Shown in pieces: positions 7,374 to 14,514 of a DNA stretch of 64,000 nucleotides. Source of the DNA: Acidobacteriota bacterium. GTDB taxonomy: Bacteria > Acidobacteriota > Terriglobia > Terriglobales > SCQP01. The translations under genes were made by a program, and so were the position numbers. Location of the stretch: contig JAKASR010000005.1 of the NCBI GenBank assembly GCA_021818955.1, forward strand, positions 1 to 64,000. Reading direction: 5' to 3'. Each line of letters starts with the position of its first letter. Position 1 is the first letter of the stretch. Under the pieces are notes generated by a model that worked only from the letters and a program-made list of their open reading frames with translations, was not told the origin of the DNA and did no database searches.

Positions 7374-7471
7374 GCCCGATTATGCAATCGCAATCGCCGC
7401 CGCGGCTAGCCAACCCTTCGCCGGACCGCGTCGAGACGCAACCTCCAGACGCGCGGAAAGCGGCAAGCGGC

Positions 7472-7620
7472 GCGGCTCAGCCGCTTTTACTTTTAGGCGC
7501 TGACGCTTTCGAAAAGGTCCGGCCGAAACCGGACGCTTTGCGAATACTCATGGCGGCCGGACATGGCCAGGCGCAATGCCTGCGGAATTCCGGCTTGCTT
7601 GATGCAATTCCTGCGGAATT
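7472..7620 (+). repeat. Dispersed repeat cluster, first tandem copy
   Basis: This copy holds the head (GCGGCTCAGCCGCTTTTAC), the CCGGCCGAAACCGG block, one damaged and one intact mini-hairpin (GCAATTCCTGCGGAATTGC at 7604-7622). It is cut short where the next copy begins. With the next two copies it fills most of the 633-bp gap between the divergent genes rlmB and egtD. Confidence 0.8.
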
Positions 7621-7813
7621 GCGCGGCTCGGCCGCTTTTACTTTTAGGCGCTGACGCTTTCGCAAAGGTCCGGCCGAAACCGGACGCTTTGCGAATACTC
7701 ATGGCTGCCGAAAGTTTATCGTCGTTAATAGGCGCGGGACCTAATAGGAACCCCGCGCTTCGGCCTGCGATTTCGGACGAAAACTGCTGTCCGACTCGGC
7801 CGTTAACGCTTTT
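7621..7813 (+). repeat. Dispersed repeat cluster, second tandem copy
   Basis: This nearly full copy has the head, the CCGGCCGAAACCGG block, the GC hairpin GCGCGGG/CCCGCGC and the tail GACTCGGCCGTTAACGC. It lacks the GCAATTCC mini-hairpin, which is replaced by AAAGTTTATCGTCG. It is almost identical to copy 1 in the shared parts, so the copies are either recent or kept alike. Confidence 0.85.
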
Positions 7814-7970
7814 GGTATCGTCGTTCATAGGCGCGGGACCTAATAGGAACCCCGCGCTTCGGCCTGCGGGCATGGCTGGAGGCAATTGCTTCGAAATTGA
7901 TAATGTTTAGGCAATTTCTTCGAAATTGCCACTGACGAAAACTACTGTCCGACTCGGCCGTTAACGTTTA
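7814..7970 (+). repeat. Dispersed repeat cluster, third copy, 3' modules
   Basis: This copy lacks the head and starts at the GC hairpin module. It then has one imperfect and one perfect GGCAATTTC-NNN-GAAATTGCC mini-hairpin (perfect at 7910-7930) and the tail GACTCGGCCGTTAACG. The modules therefore combine independently. It ends about 36 bp before the egtD start. Confidence 0.82.
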
Positions 7971-9980: not shown

Positions 9981-10820
9981 GTGGGCGCCATTCGTCAGAG
10001 CCTGAAGCAGACGCGCAAGATCAGCGCCAGCCAGATTCGCAAGCGCGCGGAACAGCCCTTTACCCTTTGTTTCATCGGCGCGGATGAAGCCGATCGCGCC
10101 GGCCTGTTGCGGCTGTTTTTGCCGGAAAACATGTCGCGCGCCGAGCGCGATCGGGCGATCATGTTCGTCCGCTCATCCCTGGCCGGCGCGGCGCAACCTG
10201 GCCGGGACGAGCTGGCGGTATGGACGGCGGCGGCGGCGCACGGGGCGGGCGTGACGGATGCCCGCCATGCCGTAGTGGATTTAGACGCGCCGCAGGCGGG
10301 CCTGGAACGGCTGCTGCGGCTCTATCCGCAGCGAGCGCTGGCGCTGGGCCGCACCTTCCCCGTGCTGCGCCCGCTGGCCGCCCGGCACTGCATACAAGCC
10401 ATAGCCATGCGCAATGCCGCCTTCGCCGCCCTGAGCGCCATTCCCGAAGTAGCGCCAACCCCGCTCAGCCTGGTTTGGGCGGCGGGCGAGTTTGCCTCCG
10501 ACACGCTGGTGCTGACCGCCAATCAGATCCGGCTGGCTTTCGAGCTGGCCGCGCTGGCAGGCATCGAGGTGGGCTGGACGCGCCAATCCGGCCGTTTGCT
10601 GGCAATCGTTGCCGGGGCGTTTGGCTGGCGTTCGCTGGCGCGCGAGCTGGTCAGCCTGATACCCGCGGGTGTGGGTCTGGCGGCCAAATCGGGCATCGCC
10701 TATGCCGGAACCTATGCCGTAGGGAAATCGCTCTGGCGCTATAGCCAGTCGCGGCATCCCGGGCTGATGGCGGAACTGCCGGCGCGAGAAGCATTTGGCC
10801 CCTTGCCGGCTTCCGCTTAA
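9981..10820 (+). CDS. DUF697-type membrane-associated protein
   Basis: The 279-residue protein begins with GTG at 9981 behind a good GGGAGG box. The N-terminal half is soluble (FTLCFIGADEADRAGLLRLF). The C-terminal half has hydrophobic helices ending in LVSLIPAGVGLAAKSGIAYA and GTYAVGKSLWRY, which resembles the DUF697/YcjF-type domain found beside Era-like GTPases. No GTPase domain is visible in this protein or its direct neighbours. Function is unknown; the family name is a recognition by pattern, not a search result. It lies 71 bp upstream of the HPF-sigma fusion gene on the same strand. Confidence 0.6.
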   Translation: MGAIRQSLKQTRKISASQIRKRAEQPFTLCFIGADEADRAGLLRLFLPENMSRAERDRAIMFVRSSLAGAAQPGRDELAVWTAAAAHGAGVTDARHAVVDLDAPQAGLERLLRLYPQRALALGRTFPVLRPLAARHCIQAIAMRNAAFAALSAIPEVAPTPLSLVWAAGEFASDTLVLTANQIRLAFELAALAGIEVGWTRQSGRLLAIVAGAFGWRSLARELVSLIPAGVGLAAKSGIAYAGTYAVGKSLWRYSQSRHPGLMAELPAREAFGPLPASA

Positions 10821-10891: not shown

Positions 10892-11926
10892 ATGAAGCTT
10901 CAGTTCACCTACCAGGTAGCCAAAGCGCCGGATCTGGAAGCGCTGGTGCAGCGCTCGGGAGAAAAAATTGAACGCTTGCTGCGGGTGTTCAACCCCGACC
11001 TGGTGGCGCTGCATGGGCGGCTGTCGCTCCGGAGCCCGCGCGAAGGGGTGACCTGCACCCTGAATCTCCGGCTGCCCACCGGGCAATTTGCCAGCGAGGA
11101 AAGCGCGGTCACGGCGCAAGCCGCCTTGCGCGCCGCGCGCGAAGACCTGATCGAGCAGATCAAAAAACACAAGGAAAAATTGCGGCGCGAAACCGGGCAA
11201 CGGCGCCCGCTGCGCGAGTTGCCGGCGGAAGCCGCGCCGCCGCCGGTAGTGGCCCGCCTGAGCCCGGTCGATCTCTCGCATTACATCAGCGCGCATGTCG
11301 AAACGCTGCTCGAGTTTATCCGGCGCCAGATCCGCTGGCGGGTGGAAAGCGGCGAGTTGACCGCCGGCGAACTGGACGAGCGCGAGGTGCTGAATGAAGC
11401 CATTGCCAGCGGCTTGTCGAATCACGCTTATCTGGACGAAAGCAACCGCGAGCGCTGGTTTTTTCTGCTAGCGATGGATGCCATCCGCCGGCTGAGCGCG
11501 GCGGGACGCGATGGCGAGGCCGCGGGCGTGCAAATGCTCTCGCTGGAAAGCGATTTAAACGCGAGCGCGCGGCGGCAGGCGGAACAATTCGAGACGATCG
11601 AGCCGGAAGATGAATTGCAGCAAGCCGACCTGATTCCCGACCCCGGCGTGGCGTCGCCGGAAGAGGTCGCTTATACGGATGAAGATATGACGCTTTTGGA
11701 AGCCGCGCTGCTGCGCCTGCCGCCCCAACAGCGGGAAGATTTGATTTTATTCACCTTCGAAGGCTTCAGCTTGCGCGAGCTGGCGCTATTAAGCGAACGC
11801 GAGCGCGCGGAGGTGGAAGCCAGCCTGCGGCACGCGCGCCAGATGCTGGAAGCCAGCCGGGAGATTCCCGGCGACTTGCGCAAGCTGGTGGTAGAGAAAA
11901 CCGGCCGCAAGCTGCAGGTGGCCTAA
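10892..11926 (+). CDS. Ribosome-hibernation (HPF/RaiA)-like domain fused to sigma-70-like regions
   Basis: The 344-residue protein joins two modules. Residues 1-110 match the HPF/RaiA (sigma-54 modulation) fold: MKLQFTYQ, a helix with RSGEKIERLLRVF, strands, then a basic helix DLIEQIKKHKEKLRRE that in HPF lies in the ribosomal decoding centre. After a linker, residues 130-215 form helices like sigma region 2, and residues 275-335 resemble sigma region 4 (LPPQQREDLILFTFEGFSLR, then ELALL and a helix ending RHARQMLEA). The stop is 5 bp before the lytic transglycosylase gene. It may link ribosome hibernation to transcription; this is inference. A role only in ribosome binding, with a degenerate sigma part, is the alternative. 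Confidence 0.72.
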   Translation: MKLQFTYQVAKAPDLEALVQRSGEKIERLLRVFNPDLVALHGRLSLRSPREGVTCTLNLRLPTGQFASEESAVTAQAALRAAREDLIEQIKKHKEKLRRETGQRRPLRELPAEAAPPPVVARLSPVDLSHYISAHVETLLEFIRRQIRWRVESGELTAGELDEREVLNEAIASGLSNHAYLDESNRERWFFLLAMDAIRRLSAAGRDGEAAGVQMLSLESDLNASARRQAEQFETIEPEDELQQADLIPDPGVASPEEVAYTDEDMTLLEAALLRLPPQQREDLILFTFEGFSLRELALLSERERAEVEASLRHARQMLEASREIPGDLRKLVVEKTGRKLQVA

Positions 11927-11931
11927 GCCGC

Positions 11932-13656
11932 ATGTCACCCTCGACCCAGCGGCCCGGCCGCAACTTGCAGACCAGCCGCGGGGGCAAGCGCAGGGCGTCG
12001 TTCCTGGCCCTGGCGCTGTGGTTGCCCGCTCTCGCCGGGGCCGGCTGCAGCCCGGCGCGCGCCAAGCTGCAAGTGGCGGCACCGCGCCCGGCGCCGCCGC
12101 CCATGCCCGCGCCGCCGGCGACGCCCATCTATGCGGCGCCGGCCAAGGCGGCGCCGTTGCAGATGGCGGTTACGCCCCCGCCGCCGCCCAAGATCACGCC
12201 CGTGCAATTCCTGCTCGAGGCCAGCGAGCGCGATTATGCGCGCGGGGTGGCGCTCTATAACGCCGGCAAGCTGGACGCCGCCCGGCATCGCTTCAACCGC
12301 GCCATCACGCGTATCCTGGCCAGTCCCCTACCGGTCCGTCAAACTCCGGCTTTAGCCGCCGAACTGGATCGGCTGGTGGACCGGATTCATGCGCTGGAAA
12401 TGAATGCGCTCGAAGCCGGCGACGGGTTCACCGCGGCGCGCGAGCGCCCGGCGCCGCTGGATAAGCTGGCCCGCCTGACCATCCCGCTTACCCCGGCCAT
12501 CCGCGCCCAGGTCGAACAGCAGATCCGCAATCGCCGCGGCGACATGCCCCTGACCCTGAACGGTCCCGTCATCCGCTATATCCATTACTTCACCACCACG
12601 GGGCGGCAGGAACTGATGCGCGCCTTTCAACGCGCCGGCCGCTACCGCGCCATGATCAAGCGGATTTTCCGGCAGGAAGGCGTGCCGCAGGAGCTGATTT
12701 ATCTAGCGCAGGAAGAGAGCGATTTTCACAACCATACCGCCTCCAGCGCGGGCGCGCGCGGGATGTGGCAATTCATGGAAAGCCGGGCGCGCGGCTATGG
12801 CCTGACCCGCAACTGGTGGGTGGATGAGCGCCAGGATCCGCGGCTCGCCACCGAAGCGGCGGCGCGCCACCTGAAGTACCTGTACCGCCAGTTTGGCGAT
12901 TGGAATCTCGCCATGGCGGCGTACGATGCCGGGCCGGAAACCATTCGCCAAGCGGTCGCCCGCACGGGCTATGCGGATTTCTGGCAGCTCTATCGCCGCC
13001 AAGTGCTGCCTCAGGAAACCCGGCATTATGTGCCCATCATCCTGGCCATCGCCTTAATCGCCAAAAACCCGGCGCCTTATGGCTTAACTCATATCGTTCC
13101 CGATTCGCCGCTCGAGATGGATACCGTGCGGCTGGACGCGCCTGTCGATTTGCGGCTGGCGGCGGAATGCGCCCACACCAACTTGCGCGAGATGCGCCGC
13201 TTGAATCCCGCCCTGCTGCGTTTAACTACGCCCAATCTGCCCGGCTTTGCTTTGCATGTGCCTGCCGGACGCGCGGCGGCGTTTGCAGCCGCGCTGCAAC
13301 GGATTCCGCCCGACAAGCGCGTGCTGTGGCGTTATTACCGCGTGCGCGAAGGGGAAAACCTGCGCGCCATTGCCCGGCGCTATCGCGTGACGTTATGGCA
13401 GTTGGCCGCGGTCAATAATCTCAACCCGGCGCGCACCTTGCTGGTGGGCACGCGGCTGATCATTCCCATCCGCCACCGCTCCGAGCCGTTGGCGGCGGGC
13501 TGGTATCGGGTGCGGCCCGGCGATACCCTCTGGTCGCTGGCGCGCCGCTTTCATGTCGGGCTGAACCAACTCCGGCGCTGGAACCATTTGCGCGGCCATA
13601 TCCTACAGATGGGGCAGCATTTATGGCTGCAGCCGCATGGCCGCGCCCGCCGGTAA
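11932..13656 (+). CDS. MltD-like membrane-bound lytic transglycosylase with LysM domains
   Basis: The 574-residue protein cleaves peptidoglycan glycan chains in the periplasm. It has a signal with a probable lipobox Cys39 (LAGAGC), a proline-rich linker, and an SLT domain at about 245-400. The catalytic Glu is in LAQEESDF (about residue 262), followed by SAGARGMWQFM and MAAYDAGPETI. Two LysM peptidoglycan-binding repeats follow: YRVREGENLRAIARRYRVT (about 463) and YRVRPGDTLWSLARRFHVG (about 523). The ATG is 5 bp after the preceding gene's stop. A third LysM lies in frame directly after the TAA at 13654-13656, so this protein looks shortened. Confidence 0.9.
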   Translation: MSPSTQRPGRNLQTSRGGKRRASFLALALWLPALAGAGCSPARAKLQVAAPRPAPPPMPAPPATPIYAAPAKAAPLQMAVTPPPPPKITPVQFLLEASERDYARGVALYNAGKLDAARHRFNRAITRILASPLPVRQTPALAAELDRLVDRIHALEMNALEAGDGFTAARERPAPLDKLARLTIPLTPAIRAQVEQQIRNRRGDMPLTLNGPVIRYIHYFTTTGRQELMRAFQRAGRYRAMIKRIFRQEGVPQELIYLAQEESDFHNHTASSAGARGMWQFMESRARGYGLTRNWWVDERQDPRLATEAAARHLKYLYRQFGDWNLAMAAYDAGPETIRQAVARTGYADFWQLYRRQVLPQETRHYVPIILAIALIAKNPAPYGLTHIVPDSPLEMDTVRLDAPVDLRLAAECAHTNLREMRRLNPALLRLTTPNLPGFALHVPAGRAAAFAAALQRIPPDKRVLWRYYRVREGENLRAIARRYRVTLWQLAAVNNLNPARTLLVGTRLIIPIRHRSEPLAAGWYRVRPGDTLWSLARRFHVGLNQLRRWNHLRGHILQMGQHLWLQPHGRARR

Positions 13657-13902: not shown

Positions 13903-14514
13903 ATGGAAAACGAGCGTTGGCGATATTTCTGCCAGAATGACGCTGGCGATGGCGATTTCACCGATGATCAAGACACGTTCATCGACGAGGAAGAAGACGA
14001 GATCGAAATCAGCGAGGATCTGACGTCGTATACCCCGTCGGCGCCGATTGCACCCGCACCCGAGCCTGAGCTTGAACCCGAGCCCAAGCCGGTGGCCGCG
14101 CCGGCTCGAAAAGCGGCGCCGCGCGCCCCAGCGAAACCCGCGGCGCGCCGCCCCCCCCAAGCCGCCAGCGGCAAGGCGGCGGCGGGACGCGCCGGCAAAG
14201 CGGCGAAACGCGGCAAAGCCAGCGCCGCCAAACGCGGCAAGACCAGCACGGCGGCGCGCAGCAAAACGCGCACGCGCGGCGTCTCGGCCCGCGCCAAGAC
14301 GGGCAAAGCGCGGGCTCAATCGGCCACCACGCGTGGCAAGAGTACGCGCAAAGGCAGCCGCGCCAGCGCGGGTAAAAACAGCCGGACGAATGCGAGGAAA
14401 ACCAGCCGCGCCGGCACGAGTAAAAGCAGCCGGGCGAATGCGAGGAAAACCAGCCGCGCCGGCACGCGCAAAGCCGGCCGCGGCACGCGCAACGCCGGCC
14501 GCGGCCGGCGTTAG
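13903..14514 (+). CDS. Histone H1-like protein with acidic N-terminus and basic Ala/Lys/Arg-rich tail
   Basis: The 203-residue protein has a very strong ribosome binding site (GAGGAGGAAG, 5 nt before the ATG). Residues 1-45 are acidic (DDQDTFIDEEEDEIEISED), a proline-rich spacer with repeated PEPE follows, and residues 60-203 are low-complexity and strongly basic, rich in Ala, Lys, Arg, Gly, Ser and Thr. The end contains a tandem repeat of about 15 residues (NARKTSRAGTSKSSRANARK). Such tails bind DNA in histone-H1-like bacterial proteins, so a nucleoid role is plausible but inferred. Low complexity makes homology uncertain; an RNA- or ribosome-binding role is also possible. Confidence 0.7.
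   Translation: MENERWRYFCQNDAGDGDFTDDQDTFIDEEEDEIEISEDLTSYTPSAPIAPAPEPELEPEPKPVAAPARKAAPRAPAKPAARRPPQAASGKAAAGRAGKAAKRGKASAAKRGKTSTAARSKTRTRGVSARAKTGKARAQSATTRGKSTRKGSRASAGKNSRTNARKTSRAGTSKSSRANARKTSRAGTRKAGRGTRNAGRGRR

Follow-up and report, generated by a model that had tools for sequence, protein, structure and literature searches.

The open reading frame at 10892-11926 of the window, the 64,000-nucleotide stretch of Acidobacteriota DNA analyzed here (contig JAKASR010000005.1), encodes an HPF/RaiA-type ribosome-hibernation domain followed by sigma-70-like regions 2 and 4. In soil bacteria of a very common group, one conserved protein unites a fold for ribosome silencing with a fold resembling that of sigma factors. 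How ribosome silencing is coordinated with transcription in dormancy is an open question, and this fusion makes a coupling between the two testable through a single gene. The reading that we tentatively prefer, with a chance slightly below even, is that the fusion acts as a ribosome-hibernation factor with a sigma-derived tail, a sigma mimic, that binds a protein partner. Such a tail would extend sigma mimicry beyond the PhyR system of alphaproteobacteria. The gene, its domains and its direct neighbors are organized as follows:

9981..10820, + strand: uncharacterized upstream gene, 279 aa
10892..11926, + strand: HPF-sigma-like fusion gene, ATG start, 344 aa
10892..11203, + strand: HPF/RaiA (S30AE) domain, residues 1-104 (Pfam, AlphaFold model and fold match)
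11204..11263, + strand: low-confidence linker, residues 105-124 (pLDDT 40-60)
11264..11512, + strand: sigma region 2-like helices, residues 125-207, with promoter/core contact residues mostly replaced (TIGR02937 and fold matches)
11513..11656, + strand: variable low-confidence linker, residues 208-255 (pLDDT <50 over most of it)
11657..11857, + strand: sigma region 4-like helix-turn-helix, residues 256-322 (Pfam Sigma70_r4_2 and fold comparison)
11870..11920, + strand: C-terminal helix, residues 327-343 (AlphaFold model)
11932..13656, + strand: downstream gene, lytic transglycosylase (SLT + LysM; profile matches)

This layout is recovered consistently by profiles, AlphaFold models and fold comparison; the original prediction had proposed it as an HPF/RaiA-like N-terminus joined to sigma regions 2 and 4, and profile matches exist both to HPF in the first half and to sigma factors in the second. 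Pfam Ribosomal_S30AE (PF02482) covers residues 16-98 (E 1.2e-7, 32.8 bits vs a cut-off of 23.7) and Pfam Sigma70_r4_2 covers residues 268-319 (E 1.2e-5, 25.2 bits, just below the cut-off of 25.7). The NCBIfam sigma70-ECF model TIGR02937 spans residues 136-320, comprising regions 2 and 4 (E 3.5e-8), but its score stays under the curated cut-off, which means that region 2 is captured only if the whole sigma half is scored. The cut-off of the HPF equivalog model TIGR00741 is not attained by the fusion protein (16.8 vs 40.9). When a profile built from 20 homologues was compared with solved structures, it matched the ECF sigma factor 7qh5 over regions 2 and 4 (E 2.6e-10), PhyR sigma-like domains over region 4 (E about 3e-7) and HPF/protein Y structures (E 7e-5 to 3e-4).

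Structure prediction of both halves recovered the HPF fold and the folds of sigma regions 2 and 4. The HPF half is modeled with a pLDDT of about 90 or more, displays a beta-alpha-beta-beta-beta-alpha fold according to the model and VIA-align, and superimposes on the RaiA of the Balon-bound ribosome (8rd8, chain 8rd8_D; Z 15.3, rmsd 1.4 A over 98 residues). In the full-chain model, residues 136-329 align to sigma factors and form two confident helical blocks with low-confidence linkers between; with a pTM of 0.33, this model does not fix the placement of the domains relative to each other. When the sigma half was modeled alone, every match listed by VIA-align in a second comparison was a sigma factor or PhyR, with the EcfG-type RpoE bound to NepR as best match (5uxx; Z 11.8, rmsd 4.8 A over 154 residues) and the PhyR-NepR complex 2lfw at Z 10.0. 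For helical proteins such Z values are by themselves only suggestive, and they agree with the sequence profiles.

The same fusion was sought in relatives. It is present in 13 of the 14 genomes of the window's family, and a named-genome scan yielded 129 relatives, of which 80 were kept, all Acidobacteriota and all with the full-length fusion (80/80). At least 80 full-length homologues are known from this analysis, all of them from Acidobacteriota (class Terriglobia); the titles of the kept loci include Terriglobia, Terriglobales, Acidobacteriaceae, Candidatus Sulfotelmatobacter and Angelobacter. Sampling across the class also recovered the full-length fusion in part of family f2 (same order) and in family f8; the other genomes of the sample yielded as best match only a stand-alone HPF paralogue of short length (about 110-140 aa). 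No fusion homologues were found in plasmid records (tblastn) or, in one pattern scan, in viral contigs. One genome of the window's family (G011) carries two diverged fusion copies, L013 and L014.

The tree of the HPF domains separates the canonical HPFs of the phylum from a paralogous branch that includes the fusions (support 100/99). Within this branch, the short forms of families f7 and f12 fall outside the fusion-containing set, which (support 95/87) comprises the fusions, a short form of family f11 and the mixed short and fused forms of family f8. This topology fits, but does not prove, a single fusion event with later loss of the tail in some members. The short stand-alone paralogues of f7 and f12 (L034-L048), a branch distinct from canonical HPF and common in the class, are apparently unfused relatives of the HPF domain of the fusion.

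Purifying selection acts on both halves, with dN/dS at about 0.1-0.2 for most close pairs; among the segments it peaks in linker residues 208-255 (window vs L002). A chance fusion or an assembly artefact was rejected as an origin, because dozens of genomes carry the fusion and dN/dS is well below 1 in both halves.

The original prediction had offered two options, one chain that couples stationary-phase ribosome silencing to a transcriptional switch or a degenerate sigma part serving another function. The latter is the better fit, as promoter and core contact residues and the basic charge of the DNA-binding regions are largely gone, while the fold and a separate set of residues are strongly conserved. 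In a comparison of 84 fusions with 12 ECF sigma factors of the same genome, the region 2.2 Gln (Q168 equivalent) was found in 0/84 fusions vs 11/12 ECF sigma factors and the region 2.4 Asn in 2/84 vs 8/12. The net charge follows the same division: -0.8 vs +4.6 for regions 2.3-2.4, +0.1 vs +3.7 for region 4.2, and a more acidic -3.8 vs -0.2 for region 2.1-2.2. This pattern of residues and charge persists among 25 fusion representatives sharing <60% identity. The window protein itself has N168, D196, E309, S311 and H314 where most real ECF sigma factors have Q, N, K/R, R and R, respectively. Conservation among the fusions is complete or almost complete at other positions (W189, P256, E257, E264, L286, F292 and E296). 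Basic residues of region 4.2 are kept in most homologues (position 309 in 55/84, position 316 in 69/84), which leaves room for some DNA or core binding.

Judged from its residues, the sigma half looks like a PhyR-like sigma mimic rather than a working, promoter-recognizing sigma factor. PhyR provides a known case of such mimicry: the contacts of its sigma-like domain to promoter and core are degenerate (PMC8103513). The Pfam model for this domain (PF22233, PhyR_sigma-like; cut-off 27) scores the window protein at 17.7, and two homologues, L020 (28.4) and L026 (30.4), exceed the cut-off. The window protein has no Pfam match to a receiver domain, and no NepR was detected above cut-off in the 14 genomes of the window's family, a weak search given that NepR is a very short protein. 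The resemblance of the tail to PhyR and EcfG is presented here as likeness only, with no claim of descent.

In the window's family, an S30AE domain above cut-off was found in the fusion only, in all 13 genomes with such a match (13/13); some genomes of this family are incomplete, and seven are at least 90% complete. The C-terminal domain of long HPF (PF16321, Ribosom_S30AE_C) was not found at E 0.1 or better in the 14 family genomes, where the positive controls were detected. Several genomes of f2 encode another S30AE protein in addition to the fusion. Compared with ten canonical HPFs of the phylum, a small set aligned with MAFFT only, most fusions retain 7 of the 11 canonical basic positions (8, 25, 28, 50, 60, 92 and 94), and the other four (48, 85, 88 and 96), basic in the ten canonical HPFs, are mostly non-basic. 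The net charge of the HPF half is +6.1 in the fusions vs +4.4 in canonical HPFs, and Q89, H93 and K94 are invariant. Positions 85 and 88 are presumably the helix 2 Lys/Arg that touch 16S rRNA in protein Y, and their mostly non-basic character in the fusions calls for caution over ribosome binding. Based on these substitutions, the fusion may bind the ribosome differently from canonical HPF.

The genomic neighborhood connects the fusion to a further family, baeRF family 10, which is related to the hibernation factor Balon and supplies nearly every adjacent downstream gene outside the window's family. A gene of baeRF family 10 lies directly downstream on the same strand in 59/80 loci, mostly at gaps of 2-78 bases; negative gaps between the two genes are artefacts of over-long ORF starts in the mechanical ORF calls. 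Most loci without this neighbor are contig ends or belong to the window's clade. Of the ten loci that lack both baeRF10 and a transglycosylase, seven (all except L080, L097 and L100) are close to the edge of their contig, with less than about 2 kb of sequence after the fusion. The neighboring protein matches Pfam baeRF_family10 and, below the equivalog cut-offs, the Balon-type NCBIfam models of the MSMEG_1130 (E 3.5e-11), Rv2629 (E 4.2e-10) and AOC03_06830 (E 5.8e-7) families. The gene most commonly found next to Balon genes is raiA (PMC10901736), and for baeRF families an association with HPF genes is described (PMC6514570). In some relatives (L025:2574-3203 and ten named loci), the fusion or the baeRF10 gene is followed downstream by a gene for a 209-aa protein that carries an HxHxDH motif of the metallo-beta-lactamase type.

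In the window, five bases separate the stop codon of the fusion from the lytic transglycosylase ORF starting at 11932, the short distance pointed out when the gene was first described. Among the sampled loci, the transglycosylase occurs as downstream neighbor in the window's family only, where it takes the place of baeRF10; elsewhere in the genomes of this family no baeRF10 was found above cut-off using one protein query and PF18854. The transglycosylase was dropped as a clue to function because it is limited to the window's family, whereas baeRF10 is the usual neighbor. Upstream, the protein encoded at 9981-10820 belongs to no Pfam or NCBIfam family. Homologues of its gene are located upstream of HPF genes in several families (the window's family, f8 and f11), so it may be part of the same pathway.

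According to the preferred reading, a hibernation factor with a partner-binding sigma mimic, the HPF domain would, upon starvation or stress, occupy the small-subunit channel for mRNA and tRNA, as RaiA/HPF do, and silence the ribosome. The sigma-like tail would not recognize promoters and would bind a protein that normally handles sigma factors; candidates for this partner are an anti-sigma factor, by analogy with PhyR, and the core of RNA polymerase. How much of the tail is free would depend on how many ribosomes stand idle, and translational shutdown would in this way be coupled to transcription. Points against this reading are the four HPF positions that are mostly non-basic, the basic residues persisting in region 4.2, the lack of a NepR match above cut-off in the weak search of the window's family, and the loss of the baeRF10 neighbor in the window's clade. 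The more specific proposal of a single-chain switch, in which the hibernation factor carries the sigma mimic and the state of the ribosome pool controls the choice of partner between sigma and anti-sigma, and hence transcription, is possible but doubtful.

The tail might also serve hibernation alone, without a role in transcription, either by replacing the dimerization domain through which long HPF pairs ribosomes or by making contact with a further site on the ribosome or with the partner of Balon type. Its position after a flexible linker is that of the long-HPF C-terminal domain, Ribosom_S30AE_C is absent from all 14 family genomes searched, a baeRF10 gene is the neighbor and the promoter contacts are lost; moreover, archaeal HibA provides a precedent for a second HPF-fused domain that contacts the ribosome (PMC13324472). 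We regard this explanation as unlikely, though a serious contender: regions 2 and 4 are kept as a pair, while a generic docking domain would not need both, and several relatives outside the window's family encode a canonical HPF in addition to the fusion.

A working ECF-type sigma factor, controlled through ribosome binding by the HPF domain with idle ribosomes in the role of anti-sigma factor, would be in line with the matches of regions 2 and 4 to TIGR02937 and to ECF structures, with the region 4.2 arginines that are retained in part, and with the existence of ECF sigma factors that have N-terminal extensions of unexplained mechanism (PMC8103513). It is nevertheless improbable, given the region 2.2 Gln missing in 84/84 fusions, the absence of basic charge from the parts binding the -10 and -35 elements, and the replacement of usual ECF residues by N168, D196, E309, S311 and H314 in the window protein. 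The protein could also act on the transcription side only, its diverged HPF fold serving dimerization or RNA binding unrelated to hibernation. The loss of 4/11 canonical basic HPF positions and the place of the domain in a paralogous branch apart from canonical HPFs (100/99) point in that direction, but the invariant Q89, H93 and K94, the high basic charge, the adjoining Balon-type genes and the status of sole S30AE protein in the window's family render it quite improbable.

The fusion, for which we continue to favor a hibernation factor with a sigma mimic as tail, shares features with several known systems. With short HPF/RaiA (YfiA, PF02482) it has in common the fold, the Q..KHK motif of alpha-2, the basic charge and the lack of the long-HPF C-terminal domain; it differs by its separate paralogous branch, the loss of some basic positions and its sigma-like C-terminal half. 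Long HPF (S30AE + Ribosom_S30AE_C) has the same succession of an HPF N domain, a linker and a second domain, but the second domain of the fusion is sigma-like and PF16321 is unmatched in the window's family. The sigma-like domain of PhyR has the fold of regions 2 and 4, degenerate promoter contacts and the EGF(S/T) motif in region 4 in common with the fusion, in which HPF takes the place of the receiver domain; NepR was not found in the window's family. Among fusions of HPF with other modules, the nearest precedent is archaeal HibA, an HPF domain with a CBS module (PMC13324472). Likewise, its HPF domain is joined to an unrelated module of a regulatory type; unlike the fusion, this partner is CBS, the protein is archaeal and the order is reversed, with the HPF domain C-terminal (PMC13324472). 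Operons of Balon/baeRF with RaiA (PMC10901736, PMC6514570) display the same pairing of an HPF-type gene beside a Balon-type gene, but the HPF-type gene here is a sigma fusion. In the Balon paper, RaiA and alternative sigma-70 factors are given as distinct neighbors within operons (PMC10901736). In the main texts of open papers we found no published description of an HPF/S30AE-sigma fusion, and supplements or closed journals may differ in this respect; the survey of bacterial HPF-fused domains in the HibA paper mentions no sigma fusion in the accessible part of its main text (PMC13324472).

Two other features of the window were observed. The ORF at 13903-14514 (+ strand) encodes 203 aa with an acidic start and a long, repetitive tail rich in Lys, Arg and Ala, a composition like that of histone H1, and has no Pfam match. 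At 7470-7969, an apparently intergenic stretch contains near-identical direct repeats, namely two copies of 90 nt (97%), two of 53 nt (98%) and two of 36 nt (94%).
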